Part shown: positions 1,726 to 35,927 of the stretch, one piece after another
Position numbering within the stretch: the first letter of the stretch is position 1
Layout: every line of letters begins with the position of its first letter
Virus record (IMG/VR): IMGVR_UViG_3300020159_004199
Location: 1 to 35,927 of that record
Reading direction: 5' to 3' (one strand)
DNA from: a virus
DNA length: 35,927 bases
Notes under the pieces: generated by a model
Seen by the model: only the letters and a program-made list of their open reading frames with translations
The model's database searches: none
Told to the model about the DNA's origin: nothing
Position numbers and translations under genes: made by a program

Positions 1726-2343
1726 ATGGATGACACATCGAAAGAAATAGATGAACTTGCCGTTATTGAAGCAATGCTTAACAACCCTCAAGAAAAGTCA
1801 CTAACCGCATGGTTTACGGATAAAAAAGATTTGATTGAAGAAAAATCCGCAATACCCACAGACTCTGAACTATACGAAAGAGTTAAAGCTGAAGCTAAAG
1901 CTAAATTTGATGTTTATCCATCTGCCTATGCGAATGCTTGGCTAGTTCGTGAATACAAAAAACGCGGCGGCAGCTATAGAAAGGGAACCAAATCAATGTA
2001 CGACGGCGAAAATTTAGATAAACCAAAATGGATGACAAGCGGAATAAGGATAACTATTGAGTCTGAAGACCGCGACGAAACCTTTTTGGTTCCTGAAGAA
2101 AAAGAACTGGCGACTGCGCTTGTGTCTATAGCTAAAAAATATGGCAAGTTCAACCAAGACGGAACAGGTATATGGGCCGGATACGACTCGGCTAAAGACA
2201 ACGACGTTGCAAAAATTGGCGTTAAATGCAGTAACTGCGCCCTCTATGCCGGCGGCAACCAGTGTCGTATTATTGCATTGCCTGTCGAGCCAAATGGTAA
2301 ATGCAGATTTGCCGTAATCCCAGACGGAATAGTCTCGAAGTAA
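1726..2343 (+). CDS. Small virion-block protein with VYPSAYANAW motif and four-Cys tail
   Basis: 205 residues, no firm function. Residues ~50-85 hold AKAKFDVYPSAYANAWLV followed by EYKKRGG, a short domain I recall from small phage and giant-virus proteins (DUF5872-like; name from memory). The C-terminus has cysteines spaced C-x2-C-x8-C-x12-C (KCSNCALYAGGNQC then NGKC), a metal- or iron-sulfur-binding pattern. The start at 1726 has AAAGG 6 nt upstream. It is 8 nt from the giant gene that follows and is presumably co-transcribed with it. Both share the peptide EKSL, also at DNA level (AAGAAAAGTCACTA near 1793 and 3599). Codons are A-rich. A structural or head-associated role is inference from position. 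Confidence 0.75.
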   Translation: MDDTSKEIDELAVIEAMLNNPQEKSLTAWFTDKKDLIEEKSAIPTDSELYERVKAEAKAKFDVYPSAYANAWLVREYKKRGGSYRKGTKSMYDGENLDKPKWMTSGIRITIESEDRDETFLVPEEKELATALVSIAKKYGKFNQDGTGIWAGYDSAKDNDVAKIGVKCSNCALYAGGNQCRIIALPVEPNGKCRFAVIPDGIVSK

Positions 2344-2351
2344 CTAAAACC

Positions 2352-5300
2352 ATGGCCCGCCGCGTACTAAAAAAACTCCCAACAATAGGAAGAGCTTCTC
2401 GCTTTGAAGCGTTTAACCCTGACGCAATAGATGGCGACAACGACGGCATTGTTCAAGAGCTAACCAGGTTTGAACGCCCTGCAACAGCAAGAACTATTAG
2501 TGGAGCTATGTCAAAGCCTTTTGACATTAATCAACCCGTGCCCGAAATAATAGACGCTTTAATTAATGACCCATCTTTATACGACTTAGCACCACAAAAA
2601 ATACCGTCGGTTATATTCGAGATGGCCGGCGGAGACCGTGAACTTTTTGAACGTTCCAGAATTAGAAACGTAACTCCAAAAGGACAATGGTCCGAAAAAC
2701 GAATAATGGAACTAGTTAATGGTATAAAAATTGAACCGTCACCTGACGGTATTTTTACAATCGTTGCTCCCCCTATCCCCGAGATAAGAGAATTAATTGG
2801 TTTTGATGGGGATTTTTCCAACGTAAGGATTCCCTCGCCTGAAGCAAGAATTCGAATATATAAAGCAATTCTCGAAAATCTTAAAGAAAACAAAAATGAG
2901 AAACGCGCGTACGCCGAAACAATCAGTGAGAAGTTGTACAAAAAAGCCGATAACGGCATGTTTCTTCCACGTATGGAATATAACGACATGCGTGAATCTC
3001 TCGGCGAACAATATATGCCAGGTACGCCTTTCCATCCATTTGATGCAATATACGAACGTTTTTTAAGACTTTCAAACGACATGATGTTTGGCGCAGAGAT
3101 GAATCAGATGGAATACGTACAAGTCATGCATGACTTTTACGGGCATTTTGGAACTGGGCGTGGCTTTGACAGGCACGGAGAGTGGGCTAACTATTTAGCA
3201 ATGGTTCATGCTGCTGAAACAGTGAGTGAAGGCGATGACGAAATAATCGACCAAATAGCATTTGCGTTCTTTGACAGAATAATGACATCTCAACTTGCGG
3301 CCTGGGAAGAAGTTGACGAGAAAAGAGGAATCAGCACGGCTCAAGAAGCCCAAAGATTGATTTGGGAAATAATCCAACGTGAACATGATACGTGGGTAGA
3401 TAGAGACACGATGAGGCAAATAATTGGGATAGATGACCCTCTTACTTACTCTCGGCCTAAGACAAAATCACTATCCGAAAAAACTGAAACAATAAAAAAA
3501 CGAGCAGTTGCGTATCTTCATTCAATCGTGGACAACAACGTCGTAGAGACAGGACAGACTCACTCTTCTTTTGTTACAAAGAAAAATCCTGCAGTTGAAG
3601 AAAAGTCACTACGTAGATTTAACAGGTTCGACCGATTCGACCCCAACGCAATAGACGCCGACGGCGATGGAAAGGTTCAAGACGCAACTCGTTTTGAAAG
3701 ACCTGGATTACCTAGGGCTCCTAAAACACCTCGCCTAACCGGAGCAATGGCCAGGCCGCGCACGATGGATGAGCGGAATAAAAAAATTGTTGAGAAATAC
3801 AACAGCGGTCAGACGGCTAGACAAATAGCTAAAGAATTTGGCATGAACGAAGAAGCTGTTGAAGGTGTTTTAAAAGTCATGCGCAGACGTGGAGAAACAT
3901 TAAGAGCCCCCCTGACGGAAAGTGTTCAAGGACAACAAGAAGAAGCAAGAAAACTTTTTGATGAAGGTAAAACGTATAGCGAGATTGGTTATGCACTTGG
4001 CCTGACAAGAAGGCAGGCATACAATTTAATACGCAAATACGGAGAAGGACGTCAAAAACAACGCTCTATTGGCATAAAAGAAAGAAATGCCAAAATACTT
4101 GAAATGTTTGACTCAGGAAAAACTCGTCAAGAAATTGCAGACGAGTTCGACATTACTAGAGGCAGAGTGAATGAGGTGTTGCTTGAAAACGGAAGAAAAC
4201 GGCGAGTTAAACCAAAAGTTGAAAAAGAAAACACCAACCGCTTAAGCCGAAACCTCGAAAAGCGTAGAGCGGCGCTCGAAGTTTTAGGTTCCGAATTCGA
4301 AGCAGCGCGCGCCTTGCGTCCAACACCACAAATAGAGCCGTTACCCGTTGTAAACAGAACAGTACGTGCCCCTAAAGAACCACGTCGCACTCCCAAAAAG
4401 CCTAAGCCCCCTGCTCCCAAAACTAGAAAAGCTAGTCCTTCAAAAGATGTTGTTCCAAAGAAGAAAGAACCACGCCCTGCTCCTTCGCCCAAACCGGTTG
4501 TTGCTTCACCCAAACCGGTTGTTGCTTCACCCAAACCGGTTGTTGCTACTCCAAAACCGACACCTCCTATATTCATACCAGAAGGAATACCAGAATCTAG
4601 TAGAAGAATTCTTCAAGATTACGACGCCGGAAAAACAGTACTTGAGCTGGCCAAAGAAAGAAACATGAAGACTGGAGACATTCTTCAAACTTTAGTTAAG
4701 TACCGTCTGCCAGACAAAAGCGGCCGCATGACAATACCTAGGTCTTCAGGTGGATTAAAAGGCTCTATTGGTAGAAAAGGCCGCAAAAAGTCGATGCAAA
4801 AATACATAGACAATCCCCGTCTAGATATTGACGCAGAAACAATAGCTGAGTCTATTGGATTCTGGAGAGGCTTTTCTCTCGGAAGTGGAAGGATTAGTCC
4901 TGACAGCTACAACTACGCTAATCACCCGCAATTTTCTTATGATTTACAAACCGGCAAGCCGGTGGTTATTTTAGGCTCACGAACAGACTCTGCTGCAGAT
5001 ATTGAAAAAATAATAAAAGAAGGCAAGTACCTAATACGGAAATCTGGAACCTACGGCCTTGGAGGTAACTTTGGATTTGATGGAGACCCAATCATCGGAG
5101 AGGTTTATGAAGAATCTCTTGGGGTTGCGCGGTATCCAGGAACTTTAGCAAGAGTAAACCGCCTTATAGTAAAACTTAAATTACGGAACCCAATTGTTTA
5201 TAACGTTGGAATTTTAGAGGGACTCGAAGACTTTGCTTACAATTCCGAGATGTTTAGGTATAAAGACGGAGACGAAACCGGGCCAAGAGAAAATAGAATT

Positions 5301-8300
5301 ACAAACTTAAGAGAACAAACGAATGAATTCATTAAACAGCTCGGCGGAGAAAAGAAGGTTCGCGGTCTGTATAAAAAACTTTTAGAGACTGTAGAAAAAG
5401 AAGTTTCTTTAAACAGTTTTGACGATTCATGGAGCGCAAACGATGCCATTGAAAGATTAAATCGTTACGCAAAAATAGTCGAAGGTGGGGACATAGGGCA
5501 TATAGGACACCGCGATTTTAATCGGCTGGCGCGTGCTGCTGGCCATGATGCAATTGTTCGTCTTGCAATTGGACACTGGGAACCAGATACAAGCCACATT
5601 ATTGTTCTTGACGAAAGAAGTATAAAAATTGTTGGAAAACGTCCGGCTTATAATAAAGAAACTATTGAGGCCGAAGAATTAAGAATGGTCAACCGTTTTA
5701 TAGAGATGATAAACAGCCCTAACGGTCCGTTTTATCCAGGATTCCTAAGTGCGAGAGACATTAAGGAATATATTGCCAACATTGAAAAACTGCTTTTAGA
5801 CAAAGAAGCGAATCCAGATTCATGGACCGAAGTAGATGATAATTCGATAATTCGCCAAGCTCGCTATATTTTTAGGTCTTACGGAATGGGGCAAGCGGAA
5901 ATTAAATTTGCAGAAGAAAACGGCATCGAAACAAGTGAAGAGATAAAAAACACCCTTGAGGAAGGGTTGCAAATTGCGCTCGCCACTAACGGTTTAAAAA
6001 GAAAAAAGGGAAACAAACTTTCTGGGTCAATACGAAGAGCAGAACCAGAAGTATGGGAGATGCCGGAAGACGATTTAATACCTTTTGATGCTGGCGACTA
6101 TGATAACGAACTTGAGGGTGGAGCGTTATACGACGAGATGATTGGCCCTAAGCCAAAAGTAAACAGACCCAATGACAGAAAGCCGTTAACATTAGAATCA
6201 GCAACACAAAGACGCACTGCGCTAATTGCTGGTGGGTTTGTAAATCTTGATGACGAAATACAGGTGAGAGACGGCAAGTCCATATCTCAGCAAGCAAGAG
6301 AGGCCATAGCTCGAGATTTTGCAGAAGACAAACTTAGCTTGGCCGAAATTTTAAAAAAATACAAAGTCGGCGAAAGCTGGCTTCGTAAACATTTTCCAGA
6401 AATGGAATCTAAACAGTCTCGTAATAGACGCAGAAATGACTCAATACGTCAAGATTTCCTAGATGGTGCAACTATTGATTTCTTATCTAATAAATACAAT
6501 ATTTCTCCTAGGCATCTTCGTCGAAACATTGTAAGCGACTTGCTGAAAGAGCGAGGCGACACAGCAGACGCGCAAGAAAGTTACAAGGACCAATCAAACA
6601 GAAGAACCAATAGACGTTCAAGAAAAAATTCAAAAAAAACTAGCAAGACCAAACCAAACCCTTCTGAGTCGGTTGGCCCAAACAAAGACACAACTGCAGA
6701 TGTTCCAACTGAACCACTCATAACGCCTGGTGGGATTTCTGGTTCTATGTCAAATGAGAATTTTAATGTTGGATTAACCCTAAAAACTAAACTAAAAATA
6801 TCACCGTTAGAAAATGGATTATTTAAAGTAGAAATAGATTATGGCGACTTAACAATAAGTGCCGAAGTTGACCTAGATAACTACTCTTCGTACAAAGACG
6901 CTTATGATAGATGGATTGACTGGGATGGCAACTACGGCATGCGTGTTGCTTCATCTGCACTAATGGGGGAAAACCTTCCAGAAGCATGGGGTTACCGCGG
7001 AACCGACGATGGGACACACCATCACGACGTAATCAGTACCGGCGTAATGGTTTCTGGCGCTAAAGAATCTTTGTCAACCGTAGAGAAGCAAGTGACGGAT
7101 GCATTAATAGCCCTCCATCACATCAATACCGGTAAGGAGACCAATATTCGTCCTATTTACCGTGGTATTTCAAATATTACTGCCGGAAACGAACTGCTTA
7201 GCATGGGGAGCGGCAGTATCGTTACGCTGCCTCTCTCGGCTTTTACTGCAGATAGAAAAGTTGCAAACATGTATGCGACAGCAATGGGGACAACAAACGA
7301 CGGTCTTATACTTGAAGTTCTTCCAGGCGCGCGCGTAGGAGATGCTGCCGGAGACCAGTACCTACATAGGTTTGACTTGCTTGACGACAAAGGAAATGTA
7401 GAAGGCTCAGCTATTGATGTTACAGAATCAATTACACAAGGCAGATTTAAATTTGTAAAGATGTCTACAATTCTCGTGGCGAACCAATCAGGCGGAAACG
7501 ACTCAGTAAAGAAAATAACCCTTGAACAAATAGAAACATTTAACCCTGTTAAAGGTTCCTACGAAAAAAATTCAGGGAGACTATCCGGCTCCATGTCGTC
7601 CAAAAGAGACCAGTTTTTGGCTCGACTTGGAGACGTAAGACCAATCACTCAAGGTCTCGTTCCAGAAGACGTACAATCCCTTCAAGCCCGGGCTATTGAA
7701 ATGTATGTTCAAAGGAGCCCGACACTAATAAGACAGCTTTCTGATATCGAAGCACGTAACAGCTGGCAAACGGCTGCTGATGCCATCAACCCTGACGGCT
7801 CACGAATGTCTAAAGAGCAATACATAGCATTCAAAACAAACGAAATGCGTCAAATAGCTCAACAGTACGCTTCACGCAGGTTAAATAAATACGACCCCGA
7901 CACACGACCGCGTCATTTAGAACAACTTCAACATAACGTTGATTTAATGTTTGCTGCTTCTCCGGAATTGCAAATGCTTTGCGAACAGTATGGATACCCT
8001 TTGTACGCAATATTTAATGCGCAGGAAGTCAGAGACAAAGACGGAAAACCCGTATGGAAACCCAACGCGGAAGCACACGAAAAAAACATGCCCGGCACCG
8101 TCAATGGTATAACTTTGATGGGACTAAGTATTTCAGCTATCCACCCATACAGTGATGATGCGTTTATCCCTGAAGGGATGCTTTTTGGACAGGCCATACA
8201 AGACCAACGGCGTCTTCTTAATGGCCACTGGGGAATTCGTCCTGAAGCATACGGAACAGGCGTAGATACAGACCCCTTGTCCCTACATAAACTGCTTATC

Positions 8301-8741
8301 GAGCAGCATATGAGTGAATATGAAAAGCTTGGACGTCGTCCGGACTTAACTGATTCAAATACACCTCTTGGAACACTTAGGCACGAAACCTCGCACAGTA
8401 TTCACAGCGGGATGCTAGCCAGAGCACTACTGGATGTTTTAGAAAACCCATCTATTGAGACTCGCGAAAGATATGCATTGCTTTCACTAATGCTTAAACC
8501 AAACTGGCAGGCCGCCATTGCGGCTAGCGCCGGCAGCAGCAAGCAGGTGCAGATGATGTACGACCAAGCCGTAAGCGATTACGCGGCAAGCTCTCCGCCG
8601 GAGTGGTTTGCGGAGACACTAAGCGCAGCTTTGTCACCAAGTGAAAAAACTCGTGCTCTGTTAAATTTTAATCATCGCGGTATATTGGCTTTTGCAATTC
8701 CTGAACTTCGTAAATATTTGATAGAAGGAGACTGGCCGTGA
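2352..8741 (+). CDS. Giant modular polyprotein-like virion protein (HTH, ART-like and metallopeptidase domains)
   Basis: 2129 residues counted from ATG 2352 (MARRVLKK); an in-frame ATG at 2301 lies inside the previous gene and is less likely. Modules in order: Ca-loop-like DGDNDG (27-32); a domain with HDFYGH (260-265) and a following RHGEW; a second loop DADGDG (435-440), both loops inside R-F-[DN]-P-[ND]-A-I-D...RFERP; four helix-turn-helix units (~472-514, 528-566, 576-615, 751-790) with a Lys/Pro linker; an ART-like domain (WRG at 838-840, AGHDAIV from ~1063 to IKIVG ~1095); two more HTH units (~1314-1352, 1361-1402); an ADP-ribosyltransferase-like domain (IYRG 1602-1605, S1629-x2-T1632, E1692 before QGRF); and a zincin-like domain with HETSH (2011-2015) and EWFAE (2084-2088). 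A motif [IL]-x-G-[SA]-[MI] recurs at 49, 462, 802, 1223, 1462 and 1744, each time at a module border. I infer a processed or internal virion protein delivered into the host. Domain calls are motif-based. AGA and ATA codons are frequent. Confidence 0.8.
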   Translation: MARRVLKKLPTIGRASRFEAFNPDAIDGDNDGIVQELTRFERPATARTISGAMSKPFDINQPVPEIIDALINDPSLYDLAPQKIPSVIFEMAGGDRELFERSRIRNVTPKGQWSEKRIMELVNGIKIEPSPDGIFTIVAPPIPEIRELIGFDGDFSNVRIPSPEARIRIYKAILENLKENKNEKRAYAETISEKLYKKADNGMFLPRMEYNDMRESLGEQYMPGTPFHPFDAIYERFLRLSNDMMFGAEMNQMEYVQVMHDFYGHFGTGRGFDRHGEWANYLAMVHAAETVSEGDDEIIDQIAFAFFDRIMTSQLAAWEEVDEKRGISTAQEAQRLIWEIIQREHDTWVDRDTMRQIIGIDDPLTYSRPKTKSLSEKTETIKKRAVAYLHSIVDNNVVETGQTHSSFVTKKNPAVEEKSLRRFNRFDRFDPNAIDADGDGKVQDATRFERPGLPRAPKTPRLTGAMARPRTMDERNKKIVEKYNSGQTARQIAKEFGMNEEAVEGVLKVMRRRGETLRAPLTESVQGQQEEARKLFDEGKTYSEIGYALGLTRRQAYNLIRKYGEGRQKQRSIGIKERNAKILEMFDSGKTRQEIADEFDITRGRVNEVLLENGRKRRVKPKVEKENTNRLSRNLEKRRAALEVLGSEFEAARALRPTPQIEPLPVVNRTVRAPKEPRRTPKKPKPPAPKTRKASPSKDVVPKKKEPRPAPSPKPVVASPKPVVASPKPVVATPKPTPPIFIPEGIPESSRRILQDYDAGKTVLELAKERNMKTGDILQTLVKYRLPDKSGRMTIPRSSGGLKGSIGRKGRKKSMQKYIDNPRLDIDAETIAESIGFWRGFSLGSGRISPDSYNYANHPQFSYDLQTGKPVVILGSRTDSAADIEKIIKEGKYLIRKSGTYGLGGNFGFDGDPIIGEVYEESLGVARYPGTLARVNRLIVKLKLRNPIVYNVGILEGLEDFAYNSEMFRYKDGDETGPRENRITNLREQTNEFIKQLGGEKKVRGLYKKLLETVEKEVSLNSFDDSWSANDAIERLNRYAKIVEGGDIGHIGHRDFNRLARAAGHDAIVRLAIGHWEPDTSHIIVLDERSIKIVGKRPAYNKETIEAEELRMVNRFIEMINSPNGPFYPGFLSARDIKEYIANIEKLLLDKEANPDSWTEVDDNSIIRQARYIFRSYGMGQAEIKFAEENGIETSEEIKNTLEEGLQIALATNGLKRKKGNKLSGSIRRAEPEVWEMPEDDLIPFDAGDYDNELEGGALYDEMIGPKPKVNRPNDRKPLTLESATQRRTALIAGGFVNLDDEIQVRDGKSISQQAREAIARDFAEDKLSLAEILKKYKVGESWLRKHFPEMESKQSRNRRRNDSIRQDFLDGATIDFLSNKYNISPRHLRRNIVSDLLKERGDTADAQESYKDQSNRRTNRRSRKNSKKTSKTKPNPSESVGPNKDTTADVPTEPLITPGGISGSMSNENFNVGLTLKTKLKISPLENGLFKVEIDYGDLTISAEVDLDNYSSYKDAYDRWIDWDGNYGMRVASSALMGENLPEAWGYRGTDDGTHHHDVISTGVMVSGAKESLSTVEKQVTDALIALHHINTGKETNIRPIYRGISNITAGNELLSMGSGSIVTLPLSAFTADRKVANMYATAMGTTNDGLILEVLPGARVGDAAGDQYLHRFDLLDDKGNVEGSAIDVTESITQGRFKFVKMSTILVANQSGGNDSVKKITLEQIETFNPVKGSYEKNSGRLSGSMSSKRDQFLARLGDVRPITQGLVPEDVQSLQARAIEMYVQRSPTLIRQLSDIEARNSWQTAADAINPDGSRMSKEQYIAFKTNEMRQIAQQYASRRLNKYDPDTRPRHLEQLQHNVDLMFAASPELQMLCEQYGYPLYAIFNAQEVRDKDGKPVWKPNAEAHEKNMPGTVNGITLMGLSISAIHPYSDDAFIPEGMLFGQAIQDQRRLLNGHWGIRPEAYGTGVDTDPLSLHKLLIEQHMSEYEKLGRRPDLTDSNTPLGTLRHETSHSIHSGMLARALLDVLENPSIETRERYALLSLMLKPNWQAAIAASAGSSKQVQMMYDQAVSDYAASSPPEWFAETLSAALSPSEKTRALLNFNHRGILAFAIPELRKYLIEGDWP
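4488..4550 (+). repeat. Three 21-bp tandem repeats in the giant gene
   Basis: Three in-frame copies encode SPKPVVA-type heptads (residues ~713-733). The first two are identical; the third ends in ACT instead of TCA. They extend a Lys/Pro-rich linker between the third and fourth HTH units. The DNA identity indicates recent slippage or expansion. Confidence 0.9.
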
Positions 8742-17439: not shown

Positions 17440-18067
17440 TATTGCCACCTACATCAACTATTTCTGCTTCAACTATGTCTAGCTGACTAATGTCTTTATC
17501 TGTATCAAACAGTATGGCATTGACTGCTTCCATAGGCAGAACTCCCGAGCGACCCATAATCTCAAGCAGTTGACGGGCTTCATTTTCGGGTGACCATGTT
17601 GACAGCGCAACCGAGTCCCCTTTAGCGCCTGACAGTGTTGCACGCACAGGTGCATTTTGGGTTGCCGCAATATCAAGCTGGACATTTATGTTGTTTTGTT
17701 CCATGCCAAGAAGCTTTGCTCTTCTATCCATTATGGAAAGGACCTGCTGGATGGCCTTCATGTCGGGTTCTACGCTCATCTCAGAGCCGTCTTCTGTCGT
17801 AACGCGCCGATGCTGCGTCATGGGCCATATTGACTGCTGCAGGGCGTCCAGACGCTCCAGCTCAAGCCTGAGGACCTCTGGGTAGGCAAGGAGGGCTTCT
17901 CTGTTCATCTTCTCAAGCTGACGCCTAATAGATGCGTTAACAGAGCTTGACGTCATGTTGAAGCGTCTAGATATTTCATTAATAGCTACGCCGGCTTGTC
18001 GCATCTTAAAAATACGTAAGTCTCTTTCGGCTAAAAACTCTCTTGATAATGAGTTGTTGTTTGCCAT
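17432..18067 (-). CDS. TerS-like / HTH DNA-binding protein
   Basis: 211 residues. The N-terminal HTH (RDLRIFKMRQAGVAINEISRRFNMTSSSVNASIRRQLEKM) is followed by a long helix (ALLAYPEVLRLELERLDALQQSIWPM) and, after a variable loop, PDMKAIQQVLSIMDRRAKLLGM. This layout is typical of a family in actinophages often annotated as small terminase or terminase-like. If it is TerS it selects DNA for packaging, but its place behind the primase gene, far from the capsid gene, leaves a replication-initiator or regulatory role open. It follows the primase stop by 3 nt without a ribosome site, so translation is probably coupled. Confidence 0.6.
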   Translation of the reverse strand: MANNNSLSREFLAERDLRIFKMRQAGVAINEISRRFNMTSSSVNASIRRQLEKMNREALLAYPEVLRLELERLDALQQSIWPMTQHRRVTTEDGSEMSVEPDMKAIQQVLSIMDRRAKLLGMEQNNINVQLDIAATQNAPVRATLSGAKGDSVALSTWSPENEARQLLEIMGRSGVLPMEAVNAILFDTDKDISQLDIVEAEIVDVGGNNE

Positions 18068-29483: not shown

Positions 29484-29801
29484 GGGTTGATAGTCCCGTA
29501 CCACGCTTCACTTCTTTCCGTTTACCGGTCGACGCTACGGTTGTTACACTCGTTCCTCGTTACACAAACCTACGCTACGACCTCTGTAAACAGAAAAGAA
29601 GTCTTCGCTGTCTCAGCAGTCCCGACTTATAATCGTTCGCTTACTCACTGCCCATTTCCTCACTACGGTCGCTAGCCGTTCGCTAACGCCTACACAGGAT
29701 TCTACTCACCTTCGGTTCGTCATCCCGTTTCGGCTACGCTCCACTCTGCGAACTACGTTCAGAAACGAGTCCGTTCGTCGCTCACTCGCTCGCGAGTCCC
29801 G
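29484..29801. repeat. Non-coding structured island I
   Basis: Between the helicase and the second WhiB gene. AGTCCCG boxes at 29492, 29618 and 29795 delimit two hairpin units: family-1 hairpin (29511-29601) and a ~175-nt family-2 unit whose loop TCTACTCACCTTCGGTTCGT is closed by GGAT/ATCC (29697-29725). Open frames here are short or overlap the repeats; the last box encodes the WhiB C-terminus. The transcribed strand is unknown. Confidence 0.7.
29511..29601. ncRNA. Family-1 hairpin, copy A
   Basis: Outer stem CTTCTTTCCGTTTAC (29511-29525) with a near-perfect complement at 29586-29601; inner stem GGTCG/CGACC; internal loop ACGCTAC/TACGCT; inner GGTT/AACC; a 23-nt apical segment identical in copies B and C. 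Confidence 0.6.
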
Positions 29802-30057
29802 TTGTTACTTCAGGTCGTCCGCACACCTTGTGGTATGCCCGAATAAGAGGCAGCCGCTGTGTTTCGGTTTTGCCGCCCCAAATCCCGTATTCGATTCCGT
29901 TCGTAACTGCGTAGTTCAAACATTCCCATTCAACTGGGCATTTATCGCAAATCTCGATTGTCTTTTTTGAGACCCCTTTGGTCGTCGGAAAAAAGAAAGA
30001 TAAAGAGACTTCTTTACAAGCTCGAGCTTCTCGCCATCCATTATTGGTAAGTGACAT
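29782..30057 (-). CDS. WhiB-family iron-sulfur regulator (second copy)
   Basis: 91 residues from ATG 30057, with AAAGGA upstream. Wbl signature: ARACKEVSLSFFFP (first Cys), CDKCPVEWEC (C-x2-C-x5-C), GIEYGIWGGKTETQRL. It differs clearly from the first Wbl (19780), so the two probably act at different stages or on different partners. The C-terminus runs through an AGTCCCG box of island I. Its 5' leader contains a reverse-oriented structured unit (30132-30250), so post-transcriptional control is conceivable. Confidence 0.92.
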   Translation of the reverse strand: MSLTNNGWREARACKEVSLSFFFPTTKGVSKKTIEICDKCPVEWECLNYAVTNGIEYGIWGGKTETQRLPLIRAYHKVCGRPEVTTGLASE

Positions 30058-30131
30058 TGAATTTCCTTTAGTAGTAACAGTAGTAGTCGAGCTAACAATA
30101 CACAACACGTGTGTGAAAAGCAACTCTTTCT

Positions 30132-30250
30132 CGGGACTAGCGAGTGAGGCTGTGGTTTTTGTTTGTCGACCAGAGGTCGGGTAAGTGAGGTACGAACGTT
30201 CTCGACCGTTGGTCGGTAAACAAGACCACGACGAGCGAGCGTACGGGACT
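30132..30250 (-). repeat. Reverse-oriented structured unit in the second WhiB leader
   Basis: Bounded by CGGGACT (the box complement) at 30132 and 30244. Read on the minus strand: GTGGT and TTGTTT pair with AAACAA and ACCAC, enclosing two hairpins with the same stem, CGACC-AAC-GGTCG and CGACC-TCT-GGTCG. It is the same orientation relative to the WhiB mRNA as a 5' leader element. Bases 30058-30131 hold only the ribosome site. Confidence 0.6.
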
Positions 30251-30261
30251 AACGGATACAT

Positions 30262-30304
30262 AAAAAAACCCGCACCAGCTGCTGTGTGGGCAGTCAGTGC
30301 GGGC
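30262..30304 (-). terminator. Terminator of the ssb gene
   Basis: On the minus strand GCCCGCAC pairs with GTGCGGG, with a CAGCTG-containing loop, followed by seven Ts. It ends the SSB transcript before the WhiB leader. Confidence 0.88.
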
Positions 30305-30318
30305 TCTTTAGCGACAGG

Positions 30319-30771
30319 TCAGAACGGCTCGTCGTCCTCTGGAATGTCGTTGCGTGTTGCCGCCGGACGCTTTGCACCCGAAGATGCTGGGCGCTTAGGC
30401 GCTGAGTCGCTCGAAGCTGCGGCTTTACGCTGCACGTCCTCGAGGCCGCGTGCAGATGGTCCTACTTCCGACACAATGAACTCGATAACCGAACGCTTCT
30501 GTCCGGAATCTTTGTCTTCCCAGCTGCGCTGCTCGGGCTTACACACCACGATGACGCGCATTCCCTTGGTGGCGATGCGACACATGTCCTCAGCTGTTTG
30601 ACGCCATGCGACAAGGTTGAAGTACGAAGTCTTCTCTTGACGCTCTCCGTCTTTGTCTGTCCAGTACTCATTGACTGCGATGCCGGCGGTTGCTTTGGCT
30701 GTTCCCCCTTCGAAGAACTTGAGCTCCGGGTCTGCCGTGAGGTTTCCGATAAGTGTAATAGGCGTTGACAT
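30319..30771 (-). CDS. ssb: Single-stranded DNA-binding protein
   Basis: 150 residues. An OB-fold N-terminus (ITLIGNLTADPELKFFEGGTAKATAGIAVN, TSYFNLVAWRQTAEDMCRIATKGMRVIVVC), a Pro/Ala/Ser linker and the acidic tip DIPEDDEPF that recruits replication partners. It coats single strands at the phage fork, with primase-helicase and SNF2 helicase as natural partners. GGAG lies 8 nt before ATG 30771. Confidence 0.95.
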   Translation of the reverse strand: MSTPITLIGNLTADPELKFFEGGTAKATAGIAVNEYWTDKDGERQEKTSYFNLVAWRQTAEDMCRIATKGMRVIVVCKPEQRSWEDKDSGQKRSVIEFIVSEVGPSARGLEDVQRKAAASSDSAPKRPASSGAKRPAATRNDIPEDDEPF

Positions 30772-30827
30772 TGCTTTACTCCAATACGTTTGATTGCCTG
30801 GATTTACTTTAACAGGATGATAGTGTC

Positions 30828-31073
30828 ATGTCCATGGCTAAATCAGGAAATCTTCACGAAGCACGGCTGGCTTTATTCGAACACCTAAAAGGGGAACTAA
30901 TGATACTCATGGGTGTCGTTCCTTCTGAGATTGAATCAAAAGAAGACCTACTTCGACAAATGGAAGAAATTGGGGACGTTGCCCAAGCTGTATTGGAAGC
31001 TTTAAACATTGAGATAGTGGAAATAAAAGAAGGCAAGATTCACGCGGTTATCGATGTTGGCGAGATTGATTAG
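30828..31073 (+). CDS. Small helical hypothetical protein
   Basis: 81 residues; AGGA about 10 nt before ATG 30828, with a second in-frame ATG two codons on. Helical (LHEARLALFEHLKGELMILMGV; DLLRQMEEIGDVAQAVLEAL) with a final strand-rich segment (IEIVEIKEGKIHAVIDVG). No family recognised. It ends on the stop of the convergent gene (4-nt overlap). Confidence 0.6.
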   Translation: MSMAKSGNLHEARLALFEHLKGELMILMGVVPSEIESKEDLLRQMEEIGDVAQAVLEALNIEIVEIKEGKIHAVIDVGEID

Positions 31074-31519
31074 TCGCCATCGATGAGCCGGTAGACAATT
31101 GATGCTTCAATAAATATCAAAGCATAACTAATGCGCAACAATCCCTCGTCGTCTACCTCCGCCACGACATCGACAGATTCGATTGGTACACCGAGTCGTT
31201 TTGCGATTATTGCCTGAGCTTTGCTGATGTCTATTTCGTTTGCAAAACCGTAGAGGTCGTCGCCCATAAGGTCGGCCGCGTCCATTGGGTCAATTATCTT
31301 TACGGTGCGCCCCTGAATTGGAGCAACACGGTCATTTATTTGTCCTGCAAGAACACAGCCGGAACAAGCAAGTCTTTTTGTAGGCATAACTCGCTTACGT
31401 ATTTCGGTATGACCGCATTCAAGGCGATGTCGATACTCAACCGAACCCCATTGGCCTGTTTTTTCTATGTCCACGACCAGCCGCTGTGGGGCTGTTTTTT
31501 TGTTTATTTCTTCGGCCAT
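31070..31519 (-). CDS. Hypothetical protein with zinc-ribbon-like Cys/His
   Basis: 149 residues. Residues ~32-55 (RLECGHTEIRKRV...LACSGC) give C-G-H and C-x2-C, a probable zinc site as in small phage proteins of the 'ECGH...C..C' type. The C-terminal part (ISKAQAIIAKRLGVPIESVDVVAEVDDEGLLRISYALIF) is alpha/beta. Function unknown. It follows the small Cys-rich gene at 31529 with a 9-nt gap, probably in one operon. Confidence 0.65.
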   Translation of the reverse strand: MAEEINKKTAPQRLVVDIEKTGQWGSVEYRHRLECGHTEIRKRVMPTKRLACSGCVLAGQINDRVAPIQGRTVKIIDPMDAADLMGDDLYGFANEIDISKAQAIIAKRLGVPIESVDVVAEVDDEGLLRISYALIFIEASIVYRLIDGD

Positions 31520-31528
31520 TAAAAGATG

Positions 31529-31738
31529 CTAGTCAAAAAGACTGTCGACGACGACAAGATTGACGATGTCGGCCGGCGCAGTTTCAGCACAAATAGAGTG
31601 CGCATACATGTAAAGCTTTTTGATGTGCCGAGGATTCGAGTTGCTGCCGGTCTTTACCCAGGCACGAACTAAGTGATAGGTGCCGCTACCTATGTCGACA
31701 ATCGGATGTTTACAGAATTCGCATACGTACTGAGGCAC
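31529..31738 (-). CDS. Small Cys/His protein, leaderless GTG start
   Basis: 69 residues. VCEFCKHPIVDIGSGTYHLVRAWV...AHSIC gives two CxxC-like ligands plus His and Cys, likely zinc. GTG 31738 lies 6 nt after a perfect TATAAT, so it should be leaderless. An ATG at 31740 is out of frame. The promoter overlaps the first box of structured island II. Confidence 0.62.
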   Translation of the reverse strand: MPQYVCEFCKHPIVDIGSGTYHLVRAWVKTGSNSNPRHIKKLYMYAHSICAETAPADIVNLVVVDSLFD

Positions 31739-31744
31739 ATCTTT

Positions 31745-31773
31745 ATTATAGACAGAGGTTGACAGTCCCGCAA
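31745..31773 (-). promoter_or_regulatory. Leaderless promoter overlapping an AGTCCCG box
   Basis: Minus strand: -35 TTGCGG (31773-31768), 17-bp spacer, -10 TATAAT (31750-31745), 6 nt to GTG 31738. The box at 31764-31770 covers the -35/spacer junction. Confidence 0.68.
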
Positions 31774-31799
31774 TAGGTAATAGTCCGTTCGTATTACCC

Positions 31800-31873
31800 G
31801 AATGAAAGGTAAACGCTACGACCGTTACACTCGTTCCTCGTTACACAGGTCTACGCTTTTTACCACTTCATTC
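31800..31873. ncRNA. Family-1 hairpin, copy C
   Basis: Outer stem GAATGAAAGGTAAA with TTTTACCACTTCATTC; inner GACC/GGTC; same ACGCTAC/TACGCT internal loop and identical 23-nt apex as copies A and B. Stem sequences differ from A and B but stay complementary. Confidence 0.6.
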
Positions 31874-32151
31874 AAGTAACAACTCACTAGTCGTGAGCCC
31901 CGCCTGCGGGTATAAAGCTCATACAAAGGGCTAAAACACGTTCGTTTCTACTTCAATTACTAGCCACCGCTTATTCTCCCTCCGCAAATTTAAGAAAATT
32001 TCCTACGGGAAGAAACGCTACGGCTTGTCATTAAAGATAGAAAACTCACTCCCGAACTACTTTATAAAAAGTGTTTCTTTCATGTGTACTTGTAAGCCCC
32101 GGCTATAGGTATAAAACTTATATAAAGGGCTTTAGTCCGTTCGTGTTTATC

Positions 32152-32223
32152 GAACACTCGGTCGACGCTACGGTTGTTACACTCGTTCCTCGTTACACAA
32201 ACCTACGCTCCGACCATGTGTTC
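32152..32223. ncRNA. Family-1 hairpin, copy B
   Basis: Outer stem GAACAC/GTGTTC, then GGTCG/CGACC, ACGCTAC/TACGCT loop, GGTT/AACC and the shared apex. It is followed by ACAACTCACTAGTCG and a GAGTCCCG box, as copy C is by a GAGCCCCG box. Confidence 0.6.
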
Positions 32224-32270
32224 TCAAAACAACTCACTAGTCGGGAGTCCCGAATAAGTAATACACCTTC

Positions 32271-32322
32271 GGCGCAAGGGCTTGCTCGCTTCGCTCGCTT
32301 TAATAACGCCCTTCTTTGCGCC
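32271..32322. ncRNA. Family-3 hairpin, copy X1
   Basis: GGCGCAAGGGC (32271-32281) pairs with GCCC-TTC-TTTGCGCC (32308-32322). Copy X2 at 34392 has the same layout with two compensatory changes. Confidence 0.6.
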
Positions 32323-32679
32323 TTCGCTGAACTGCGTCAGCAACGCGTTGGGTCTCGAGAGTCCCGAGGCAACTTCGCCGACTTACGGGGCTCGCACGGG
32401 CGAAGCGCATCAAAGCAAGGAGTTTTTCCGGAAGACCGGCCGGCCGGAGAGAAAAAAAACGGGTGTTTGTTATTCATCAAACCCTGGAAGCTGGTTGCTT
32501 TATGCTTCCTCAGGAGAATAACGATTCCCTGGAAGGCTTCTTTGATGTCTGGGGGGCAAAACTCGTGAGTCCCGCGGGGGTTGCAAAACTTGTTGCGCCT
32601 ATCGCGATGGCGCACGCAAGCTAAAACACAGCGCGCTGCGGGCTAAAACGACTGCACGGGGCTTACAAACGGACAATTA

Positions 32680-32811
32680 ATGACGGTGGCGGAAGAGCGC
32701 CTTGCTTTGTCAGCTAGTTACTTGAAACGGTCGTTTACTGAACTAATCCAACACCAGCCAGCACCACTCACGAGAGCGATACTTAAAAGGAATGATGAAT
32801 TCAGTGCGTAG
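32680..32811 (+). CDS. 43-residue protein sharing the MTVAEE start
   Basis: MTVAEERLALSASYLKRSFT... then ELIQHQPAPLTRAILKRNDEFSA. Its first 17 nt (ATGACGGTGGCGGAAGA) and a GGGGCTTACAA stretch ~19 nt upstream are shared with the genes starting at 34966 and 35899, while the remainder differs. It overlaps the minus gene 32718-32933. It is either a short real protein or a decayed copy of a start cassette. Confidence 0.35.
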   Translation: MTVAEERLALSASYLKRSFTELIQHQPAPLTRAILKRNDEFSA

Positions 32812-32933
32812 AACGAGCCTAGACAAAAAACGAAGCCAAAGAATGACCGTGCTTTGTAATTCATTTGTGGCGCTGGGAAGCCCAACCTGTCTCGTACTGC
32901 TTGAGTACGGGCACGAATATTTAGCTCACTCAT
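32718..32933 (-). CDS. Small membrane protein
   Basis: 71 residues from ATG 32933, with AGGAGG about 9 nt upstream. A basic N-terminus (RARTQAVRDRLG), then two hydrophobic segments (SFFGFVFCLGSFYALN; FLLSIALVSGAGWCWISS). It follows the DUF4314 gene by 4 nt and is presumably cotranscribed. No family recognised. Confidence 0.6.
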   Translation of the reverse strand: MSELNIRARTQAVRDRLGFPAPQMNYKARSFFGFVFCLGSFYALNSSFLLSIALVSGAGWCWISSVNDRFK

Positions 32934-32937
32934 TGAT

Positions 32938-33141
32938 TTATGCCTCCTCAATAACTGTCCACGAATCAATGCCTGGAATTAATCCGAGCGTAGAACCGTC
33001 TTCCCAATCAACCATTACCGTACCAAGGTCGTCGACATAAAAGACGGTACCCTCGCTCCCCGGCTTGAGTTTTGTGTGGCTGTCGTCGGTAAAAACGAGC
33101 TTTACCCGTTGACCGACCAAAGTGCTAACCGAAGGCAACAT
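32938..33141 (-). CDS. DUF4314-like small protein
   Basis: 67 residues from ATG 33141, with GGTGG 6 nt upstream. GQRVKLVFTDDSHTKLKPGS, EGTVFYVDDLGTVMVDWEDGSTLGLIPGIDSW matches the DUF4314 pattern (G.RV.L......p...G..GtV..VDDiGti.v.WD.Gs.L.l..g.D), a small beta-barrel common in actinophages and mobile elements. Function unknown. Confidence 0.8.
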   Translation of the reverse strand: MLPSVSTLVGQRVKLVFTDDSHTKLKPGSEGTVFYVDDLGTVMVDWEDGSTLGLIPGIDSWTVIEEA

Positions 33142-33276
33142 TGAGAGCCACCATAAATGCAATTGCTGTTAATAAATTTGTCATAGCTACATCATAACGG
33201 TGTCATAATTAAAACCACAACCTTTACCGGTTACCTACTGGTGATAATGTGTAAACGAACAACGCCAGGAGATGTG

Positions 33277-34206
33277 ATGGAACAACCCAACTTGATGGAA
33301 CTTGCTTTGCCCGAAGACGCGGTCTTAGAAATGAGCAAGGACGAACGCCTTGAACGGATGCATAAGCTAGTAAGCGAGTCGCATCATCTCCTGGATTGGG
33401 GCATACAATCCATGATAATCGACGAAAATCGTCGCCTAGCTGGCACTGCCGTCCTGTTCTCCGGTGGAAACGATTCAACCTGTTTGGCACACATGTTCCG
33501 CGGCCGCGCGGATTATGCAATACATGCCAATACCTCTATCGGCATAGAGGAGACACGGCAATTCGTGCGTAATACCTGCTCCGAGTGGGGCATGGAGCTC
33601 CGTGAGTACTTTCCTCCTGCAGGTTCAACCTACCGTGAACTCGTTCTAGACCAAGGGTTTCCTGGACCTGGGTTTCATTTTAAAATGTACCAACGGCTGA
33701 AAGAGCGCGCATTGCATCAGGCTCGCCGTGAAATCGTAAAGAAACCACGGCAAGAACGGGTTGTTTTCCTTGCCGGACGCCGGCGAACAGAGTCTGCACG
33801 GCGTGCAAACGTTCCTGAGCTAAACCGTACCGGGTCAATTGTTTGGGTATCCCCCTTGGTTAACTGGACCAAAACAGACCTCTACACCTACCGTGACTGG
33901 GCCGGCGATGTTCCCCGTAACCGAGTCTCTGACTTGATACATATGTCGGGCGAGTGTCTCTGCGGTGCTTTTGCGCACAAAGACGAGCTTGCAGAGATTG
34001 AAATGTTTTTCCCTGAGGTTGCAGAAGAAATTCGCGAGCTTGAAGTTGCCGTACGTGCGGCCGGACATCCCGAAAAAAAGTGCAAGTGGGGATGGGGAGC
34101 TACAGAAAAACTAACCCCCGAAGAGCTGAAGTCAGGACCGTTGTGTTCTTCCTGTGAATACCGCATGGAAGGTGTTTTAGATGAACTCGATAGTCCCGCG
34201 ACATGA
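33277..34206 (+). CDS. PP-loop PAPS-reductase-like protein
   Basis: 309 residues from ATG 33277 (AGGAG at 33267-33271; longer GTG/ATG starts lack such a site). FSGGNDST (61-68) is the adenylate-binding PP-loop of the PAPS reductase/ATP-sulfurylase superfamily. GRRRTESARRANV is the Arg-rich substrate loop. SGECLCGAF and CSSCEYR near the C-terminus give four cysteines, possibly an iron-sulfur site as in DndC-like enzymes. Options are assimilatory sulfate chemistry, DNA phosphorothioation or a tRNA/DNA sulfur modification. No dnd partners are seen, so function is open. Its stop lies within the first box of island III. Confidence 0.82.
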   Translation: MEQPNLMELALPEDAVLEMSKDERLERMHKLVSESHHLLDWGIQSMIIDENRRLAGTAVLFSGGNDSTCLAHMFRGRADYAIHANTSIGIEETRQFVRNTCSEWGMELREYFPPAGSTYRELVLDQGFPGPGFHFKMYQRLKERALHQARREIVKKPRQERVVFLAGRRRTESARRANVPELNRTGSIVWVSPLVNWTKTDLYTYRDWAGDVPRNRVSDLIHMSGECLCGAFAHKDELAEIEMFFPEVAEEIRELEVAVRAAGHPEKKCKWGWGATEKLTPEELKSGPLCSSCEYRMEGVLDELDSPAT

Positions 34207-34241
34207 CCGTTCATTCATTCACTGCGCATTTCCTCACTACC

Positions 34242-34328
34242 GGTAAATTCTCGTTACGCTAACGCCTACGAGTAATCTACTCACCTTTGGTTCGTCATTA
34301 CTCTTCGGCTCGCTTCACTTTATTTACC
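34242..34328. ncRNA. Family-2 structured unit, copy 2 core
   Basis: GGTAAA (34242-34247) pairs with TTTACC (34323-34328); inside, GAGTAAT/ATTACTC (34270-34276, 34297-34303) closes the loop CTACTCACCTTTGGTTCGTC, nearly identical to copy 1 in island I, where the closing stem is GGAT/ATCC. Confidence 0.58.
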
Positions 34329-34391
34329 CCCGTTCGTAAATGACTCCGTTCATTCACTCACTCCTCGAGAGTCCCGAAGGTAAGAAGCTTC

Positions 34392-34445
34392 GGTGCGAGG
34401 GCTTGCTCGGCTAGCGCCTCGCTTTAGTGACGCCCTCTTCGCACC
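34392..34445. ncRNA. Family-3 hairpin, copy X2
   Basis: GGTGCGAGGGC with GCCC-TC-TTCGCACC. Relative to X1, C-G became T-A and A-T became G-C, so pairing is kept. Both copies lead to a CTCGAGAGTCCCG box 40 nt downstream. Confidence 0.6.
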
Positions 34446-34937
34446 TTCGCAGAGCCCAAGCCTGCAAGTTGCTTAACGCTCGAGAGTCCCGTGAACTTCG
34501 CTTCTGCTTCCAACACCCCTCTGGGTCGTTGTCGCAGAAAGCTCGAGAGAGACATCAAAAGACTCGAGAGCCCCGACATCCAACAGCGCATCTTCGGGAC
34601 TCCAACGACCAAACGGCAAAACGATGTCTTCTCCTTTTTTTGGTCTCGCGGCCGAGGGACCGAGAAAGAAAAATGGGCTTCTGAAACCCTTGAAAAATAA
34701 GGCTTTTGGGAAAGTGTCGTTTTTGGATTTTGGGCCAACTTCTGAGCTGGCAAAAAAATCAAGAAACAGCCCATTTTAGGCAAAGCTCCGCCCACGCAAA
34801 TCACTTCTTTTTTCACTTTATCTGGGAAATAAAAAAATACAACCTAGCTTGGGATTTTTTTGGGGACCCAAACTAACGGGAAAGAGTAAACCTTGAAAAC
34901 TTCGCAGATGGGTCTTGAGTCCCGTGCCGGCTGCCGC

Positions 34938-35055
34938 TACGCTCGGGGCTCACAACTGTAAAGGAATGACGGTGGCGGAAGAACAAATGACATTTGATGA
35001 ATGGATGAAGATAGGCATCGAGCTTGGATGGTGTGGCCCACCCGTGTGTTATACG
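34938..35055. repeat. Left arm of 118-bp inverted repeat
   Basis: Matches the reverse complement of 35810-35927 with one mismatch (35001 A versus the complement of 35864 G). It contains the upstream region and first 30 codons of the small gene at 34966. Confidence 0.93.
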
Positions 35056-35211
35056 CACGACGGTCTTCCGATGGCACTTGCAGAGGACGAGGAGTTCGAG
35101 CGGGGCTCCGACCCGTGCCTACACATAATCCGTTTATACGACGACGGCGAGCATCGTGCGGCCGTTGAAGAATCCCACTCGCCTTCCCAATGGCGTAACC
35201 ATTACAAGTGA
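34966..35211 (+). CDS. Conserved small actinophage protein (GWCGPPVC...HSPSQWR)
   Basis: 81 residues from ATG 34966, or 74 from ATG 34987, which has GGAAG 7 nt upstream and is the better-supported start. MTFDEWMKIGIELGWCGPPVCYTHDGLPMALAEDEEFERGSDPCLHIIRLY...HSPSQWRN is a pattern I recall from many actinophages, function unknown. The first 30 codons lie in the inverted-repeat arm, and the other arm carries a truncated copy (35750-35899). Confidence 0.72.
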   Translation: MTVAEEQMTFDEWMKIGIELGWCGPPVCYTHDGLPMALAEDEEFERGSDPCLHIIRLYDDGEHRAAVEESHSPSQWRNHYK

Positions 35212-35753: not shown

Positions 35754-35899
35754 TGGTTGTTGCCATCTGCGTGGTTCTTGCCCTTCTGTGGATTTTTGAC
35801 TAACGCGGCCGTATAACACACGGGTGGGCCACACCATCCAAGCTCGATGCCTATCTTCATCCAGTCATCAAATGTCATTTGTTCTTCCGCCACCGTCAT
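35750..35899 (-). pseudogene. Truncated copy of the small conserved gene
   Basis: On the minus strand the right repeat arm encodes MTVAEEQMTFDDWMKIGIEL, GWCGPPVCYT, then diverges into AALVKNPQKGKNHADGNNH and stops (49 residues). Only the first 30 residues match the gene at 34966 (one Glu to Asp change). It is either a decayed duplicate or an alternative C-terminus exposed by inversion. Confidence 0.6.
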
Positions 35900-35927
35900 T
35901 CCTTTACAGTTGTGAGCCCCGAGCGTA
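35810..35927. repeat. Right arm of 118-bp inverted repeat (runs to window end)
   Basis: Reverse complement of 34938-35055 with one mismatch, ending in a GAGCCCCG box. The repeat may continue beyond the window. Confidence 0.93.

Follow-up and report, generated by a model that had tools for sequence, protein, structure and literature searches.

Integron gene cassettes are split by attC sites whose core is GTTRRRY, and the stoperators of cluster A mycobacteriophages are short sites scattered over part of the genome, including the interior of genes. In T4-type phages, the promoter-early stem-loop (PeSL) has been summarized as an intergenic stem-loop motif of a hyperplastic small-gene region, linked to modular shuffling (PMC4503421). 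Cluster K mycobacteriophages carry SAS/ESAS, a 13-bp motif (GGGATAGGAGCCC) at the ribosome-binding sites of start codons (PMC3203893), and similar motifs occur in Microbacterium phages of cluster EF (PMC7302621). Here we analyze viral DNA of 35,927 nucleotides (IMG/VR record IMGVR_UViG_3300020159_004199, positions 1 to 35,927; this whole stretch is referred to as the window) and its relatives, in which a 7-nt box, AGYCCCG, bounds hairpin modules lying in islands between genes, with a 15-bp tag downstream. We found no description of this element in the literature searched (open-licence papers).

What chiefly marks the locus is an array of composite elements at cassette boundaries, all in one orientation. 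This lies outside the readings offered by an initial annotation of the window (a large structured RNA, replication-origin iterons, or a mobile palindromic family), of which the RNA and origin readings are not established; iterons are unlikely, with elements repeated beside many genes. The same annotation expected the islands to have a function, and this is likely, given that boxes, tag, and modular structure are all preserved across a clade of phages. We favor, at a probability of roughly 0.45, the interpretation that the islands are composite boundary elements acting as DNA and serving as exchange joints of gene cassettes. The phages belong to an uncultured group related to actinobacterial phages; no close cultured relative was found, SNF2 identity being at most 33% among the matches listed.

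Boxes and a co-oriented tag in one genome segment

The window contains 22 AGYCCCG sites, a count that none of 100 dinucleotide shuffles reached (5.83 ± 2.70 sites). Of these sites, 20 lie within 29484-34950 (15% of the window; binomial P, ~7e-15), and positions 1-29400 contain none. All 14 forward boxes (AGTCCCG or AGCCCCG) listed in the initial annotation are where it placed them, and the further sites that it named at 30132, 30244, and 34944 are present as complements; further complements lie at 32386, 32657, 34595, and 35101. The additional box listed at 35915 exists but is not an independent site. The stretch 35810-35927, which ends exactly at the contig end, repeats 34938-35055 in inverted form with 117 of 118 letters identical, and this 118-nt duplication is probably a fold-back of assembly or amplification, i.e., a contig-end artefact; since the duplication made the box at 35915, that box should not be counted. 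The statement that boxes do not occur inside ordinary genes had to be dropped: the box at 34192 supplies the final codons of the PAPS-reductase open reading frame (ORF), that at 29795 lies in C-terminal codons of the WhiB ORF, that at 35101 is internal to the small ORF 34967-35211, and boxes also occur in SNF2 genes of a sister clade. With these corrections, the original observation of the boxes is confirmed.

Relatives were gathered with the SNF2 protein (18 loci); G001 and G002/G003, with which synteny was compared, are close to the window (SNF2 identity of 79 and 71%), and relatives with 60% SNF2 identity make up the sister clade. The composite element is built of hairpin modules bounded by boxes and of box palindromes (AGYCCCG-N17-19-CGGGRCT), and the 15-bp tag, GACGGTGGYGGAWGA, follows ~8-24 nt on. 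In the window, the tag reads GACGGTGGCGGAAGA and lies downstream of the last box in islands 2 and 3, where it had been overlooked; in G003, GACGGTGGCGGAAGA likewise comes after the last box. Viral contigs were scanned for the tag (among the matches listed) and for CGGGGCT-N8-24-tag, which yielded further contigs, and by gene-order comparison those covering the SNF2 region carry SNF2 relatives. The tag occurs in 68 copies among the matches listed, in 9 of 13 contigs, always in a single orientation within a genome, while its reversed control pattern gave 0 matches in the 13 contigs. The four tagless contigs are G001, which ends ahead of the segment, and three of the sister clade, which carries AGTCCCG-N17-CGGGGCT instead, sometimes with another box 21 nt later. 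Early scans with the TTACACTCGTTCCTCGTTACAC and CTCGAGAGTCCCG patterns returned nothing, or chance matches plus L017. AGYCCCG boxes are retained within the SNF2 coding sequence, in excess of synonymous expectation, in L023, L025, L026, L030, and L031.

A gene was called downstream of 91 distinct tags, on the plus strand for 44 of them and on the minus strand for 47; thus, tag orientation is independent of gene direction. A fitting -10 hexamer, the promoter signal to which this comparison was confined, was present for 1 of the 91, and the tag was rejected as a promoter -35 element for the box-associated copies, which lack a -10. It was also rejected as a gene start, a role that suits only a few genes (MTVAEE), most copies being noncoding. 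A cellular origin was likewise discarded: in genome_contigs, the 19 matches to box plus tag were isolated, spread over unrelated records, and consistent with chance. Box-less tags in L053, L054, L059, L072, and L126 are followed 17-18 nt on by a -10-like hexamer, as read by eye, and those of the first four also resemble, by eye, TTGACG...TANNNT promoters. At 34967-35211 of the window and at 17489-17750 (minus strand) of L040, a small gene opens with the tag as its starting codons (MTVAE), as though gene and tag had been fused.

Where mapped, tags are confined to one low-coding segment per genome, usually of 8-20 kb. In G010, G017, and G018, coding density in this segment is 0.15-0.8, compared with ~0.9-1.0 in the blocks of late genes. 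The rest of these genomes is nearly free of boxes; in G010 it has just one in 96 kb. Sister-clade SNF2 genes contain 4-7 boxes, versus ~0.6 in synonymous-codon shuffles, in 8 of 9 sequences (the ninth, L033, is truncated), although these sequences are mutually 72-100% identical and represent few independent lineages. The internal boxes occur in both F and R orientations at largely shared positions. Such strand-independent selection on the box inside a gene suggests that it is a candidate site at which a protein would bind double-stranded DNA. Of 75 F-R pairs, 65 have a palindrome spacing of 24-26, and the letters of the two arms combine about independently (tag clade: C/A mismatch, 9; T/A, 2), in the manner of half-sites. 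Base pairing was rejected as the reason for the arms, which vary about independently; clear covariation of the inner stems was limited to the 19-nt class (62 paired versus 43.7 ± 4.9 in cross-paired sequences), and the 17- and 18-nt classes gave weak signals in other registers (z of 2 to 2.7 among 27 tests).

Half-site palindromes with fixed spacing, boxes in either orientation within coding sequence, and the restriction of boxes to one genome segment would all be compatible with transcription control, in which the box is the operator of a phage or host regulator, like the stoperators of L5-type phages, the element sets or insulates early-gene expression, and shuffling is a side effect. This alternative deserves attention but seems unlikely, since the tag ignores gene direction and lacks a -10, and since it leaves the conserved hairpin modules and the absence of island 1 from relatives unexplained.

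Cassette order and junctions among relatives

Genes are arranged as cassettes between the elements, with about one element per cassette, and cassette order varies among phages: F8, F9, F27, and F3 occur in different neighborhoods, F8 following F37, F2, or F3. For cassettes with different left neighbors, homology starts at -2 (F8 in L055 and L117), -1 (F8 in L055 and L108), and 0 (F2 in L117 and L201) relative to the tag. Genes appear to have been exchanged as whole units where the boundary elements lie. Tag-to-tag spacing is often 650-850 bp, despite genes of 55 to 190 codons (L117, L066, G017, and G018).

Island 1 is absent from the corresponding junction in both G001 and G002, where WhiB directly adjoins SNF2. 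Because WhiB runs directly into SNF2 in these two relatives, we infer by parsimony that island 1 is a gain in the window rather than two losses. The island has replaced the WhiB end (PEVTTGLASE in the window versus PEVEPVL in G002), and the WhiB-SSB module has opposite orientations in the window and in G002. To this extent the suggestion of a mobile palindromic family has support. Variable copy number, the flipped locus, and the extra island between WhiB and SNF2 could all result from the spread of selfish, REP- or MITE-like mobile palindromes through a low-coding region that tolerates them, an explanation that we consider improbable in view of the uniform tag orientation, the presence of about one element per cassette, and clade-wide conservation. 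Nor was an enzyme for such mobility found in the 13 contigs: Y1 transposase was found in none of them (5 controls positive), although a host enzyme is possible; a phage_integrase-family tyrosine recombinase was found in 0 of 13 (14/14 controls positive) and a resolvase in none (working controls), with the limitation that IMG/VR contigs may be incomplete.

It is also conceivable, though on balance rather unlikely, that the locus is an integrase-less cassette system, in which co-oriented sites made of box palindromes, covarying single-stranded DNA hairpins, and the 15-bp tag would form exact joints for the insertion and reordering of single-gene cassettes, through a putative recombinase or guided homologous recombination.

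Hairpin modules as DNA or RNA

The initial annotation proposed a covariance model as a check, and one module family of the relatives does show structure. Nine modules (from L057, L060, L108, L117, L168, L192, and L213) aligned with MAFFT gave a consensus of 39 pairs, 16 of them with compensatory changes. In a covariance model with 16 matches (14 distinct), 28 of the 39 pairs change on both sides and 98.9% of cells are paired, a result reached by 0 of 500 shuffles; this extended alignment is fitted to the structure, which favors covariation, while the nine-sequence MAFFT alignment is not so fitted. Slid structures gave no signal in the extended alignment, and the model also matches L020:254-396 (E, 2e-5), outside its training set. 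Within the window islands, the five best matches are hairpin units that start at a box (E, 0.004 to 0.6), matches in island 1 (at 29624 and 29801, minus strand) and in the left part of island 2 are weak, and the best match in positions 1-29400 has an E of 2.7. Since the model begins with the box, which gives part of the score, membership of the window units in the covarying family is only probable. The units are repeats of one another with roughly 65-90% identity (65-78% in family D1).

The claim that nearly everything between boxes folds into hairpins held for four imperfect-hairpin units, namely, 29492-29624, 30132-30250, 31764-31902, and 32095-32252 (z of -2.5 to -4.0 on the better strand, relative to shuffles), and failed for 29618-29801, 32387-32568, and 34602-34924, where folding was not above that of shuffles (z between +1.3 and -0.9). 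On inspection, the folds show symmetric 3x3 internal loops that would allow stacked G-A pairs, and purine-rich internal loops are conserved in the modules.

GNA triloops with at least three closing pairs number 51 on the purine strand, against an expectation of 13.1 ± 3.5 (~4-fold), and 1 on the other strand, in a set of sequences related to each other; GNRA tetraloops are not enriched (10 versus 8.8), and the triloop excess in the window alone is small (9 versus 4.4 ± 2.1). GNA triloops are extra-stable loops of DNA minihairpins, according to references cited in PMC6479982, and N4 promoters are hairpins with such loops, C(GNA)G (PMC4496689). The triloop pattern leans toward single-stranded DNA without deciding the matter. 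Because N4 promoters are hairpins of this kind and the enrichment is limited to the purine strand, the modules might be single-stranded hairpin signals for a polymerase or nuclease, like the promoters of the N4 virion RNA polymerase. We judge this very improbable: the sequences in the loop test are mutually related, and no T7/N4-type RNA polymerase was seen, the search with PF00940 having matched no contig, though no control genome either.

The covarying pairs, the conserved purine-rich loops, and the better-than-shuffled folding of several units are also what would be expected if each box-bounded module were a structured noncoding RNA, cut or bound at the boxes. We regard that explanation as quite unlikely. 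The elements appear, by eye, to lie between the terminators and promoters of their neighbors, modules are found in either orientation, the window region has fewer promoter-like matches than the shuffle mean, and the enrichment of GNA triloops rather than GNRA loops fits DNA better. The large ornate RNAs that had been suggested (GOLLD and ROOL) likewise lack support: no Rfam family matched at its gathering score, the search returned only tRNAs, and the best subthreshold match in the islands was to a microRNA model (E, 0.67; 22.5 bits versus a cutoff of 90).

The features of the islands are collected in Table 1. The PAPS-reductase-like phage gene ahead of island 3 (33277-34206) has its nearest cultured matches in phages of Rhodococcus, Streptomyces, and Arthrobacter. 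Elsewhere in the window, a 2,146-amino-acid ORF beside the capsid gene (2301-8741) has several helix-turn-helix matches at residues ~480-800; it gave no PDB match and no RNA polymerase match.

Table 1. Coordinates of island features in the window
Feature	Position	Strand	Basis or remark
Island 1, made of hairpin units 29492-29624 and 29618-29801, each bounded by boxes	29484-29801	- (purine-rich strand)	Between WhiB and SNF2; boxes, folding
Box-bounded hairpin module in WhiB/SSB gap	30132-30250	+	Opposite to other units; fold z = -4.0; compare L020 2700-2877
Island 2, left part, hairpin units (31764-31902, 31896-32101, 32095-32252)	31764-32252	-	Repeat family D1, folding
Box-bounded unit akin to 34370-34491	32246-32366	-	Repeat families D8 and D12; fold no better than shuffles
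Box palindrome AGTCCCG-N19-CGGGGCT	32360-32392	+	Sequence
Spacer ("core") from palindrome to last boxes	32393-32567		No fold signal
Box pair AGTCCCG...CGGGGCT ahead of tag	32568-32663	+	Sequence
Tag GACGGTGGCGGAAGA	32682-32696	+	Sequence; 18 nt past box
Island 3, hairpin unit akin to 29618-29801	34192-34376	-	Families D5 and D6; first box within PAPS-reductase end
Island 3, box-bounded units (34370-34491, 34485-34575)	34370-34575		Boxes, repeats
Box palindrome AGCCCCG-N19-CGGGACT	34569-34601	+	Sequence
AT-rich core	34602-34917		Parts like G003 stretches by eye; no fold signal
Box palindrome AGTCCCG-N19-CGGGGCT	34918-34950	+	Sequence
Tag GACGGTGGCGGAAGA, doubling as first codons (MTVAEE) of small gene	34968-34982	+	17 nt past box; homologous gene in L040
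Lone box inside small ORF	35101-35107	-	Sequence

A tentative exchange model and its known counterparts

We hypothesize that a protein encoded by the phage or its host binds the box as double-stranded DNA, while a second factor would read the tag. The bound, hairpin-bearing sites may then serve as joints at which co-infecting relatives exchange cassettes and may insulate the cassettes from each other. Each cassette appears, as read by eye, to be self-contained, with its own promoter and terminator, and the hairpin modules would be add-on parts that multiply at boxes. Exchange would proceed through homologous recombination of the phage or host, a route proposed because no site-specific recombinase was found.

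Several points weigh against this model. Homologous recombination alone leaves the common orientation of the tags unexplained, and both the recombinase and the box or tag binder remain putative. The exact joint at the tag holds in part of the comparisons, not all: in other cassette pairs, homology begins at -24 to -44, where the last box is shared, or farther upstream, or only within the cassette. Boundary shuffling could be a by-product of repeats with another job, and the covariation of the modules could equally mean an RNA function. Finally, genes were called with a simple, home-made coding score, and many loci are closely related, so that counts are not independent.

Mosaicism is ubiquitous among phages, but few joints are conserved to the point that they can be read as a signal. 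A clade-wide boundary array with one direction and a precise junction offers a testable system for early-gene exchange in phages, and the covarying module adds a structured element of nucleic acid that has no Rfam match.

The array resembles integrons in that imperfect palindromes, all in one orientation and with conserved 7-mers at their outer ends, separate the cassettes and that genes are reorderable; the tags, as putative recombination sites, are co-oriented, and some cassette junctions fall at them in sequence comparisons. It differs in that the 7-mer is not that of the attC core, that the arrays are found in phages, and that no tyrosine recombinase was found in the 13 contigs. Like stoperators, the boxes are short sites in one part of the genome, some inside genes; unlike them, they have another sequence and are paired in palindromes, and a repressor is only putative. 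With SAS/ESAS the tag shares the form of a short actinophage repeat that follows inverted repeats after a variable spacer, mostly in one orientation (PMC3203893, PMC7302621), whereas the tag here (GACGGTGGYGGAWGA) is mostly noncoding, stands as often ahead of gene 3' ends, and marks the start of only a few genes. The likeness to PeSL, compared by its summary, extends to an intergenic composite stem-loop motif among small genes that is associated with module shuffling, as it is here. In contrast to PeSL, no promoter was found in the tag (no fitting -10, the signal compared, for 90 of 91 tags) and its orientation ignores gene direction; nothing known there corresponds to the box, the tag, or the covarying modules. 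Repeated intergenic phage motifs are already known from PeSL and SAS/ESAS; the present element departs from them in its sequence, its independence of gene direction, and its covarying modules.

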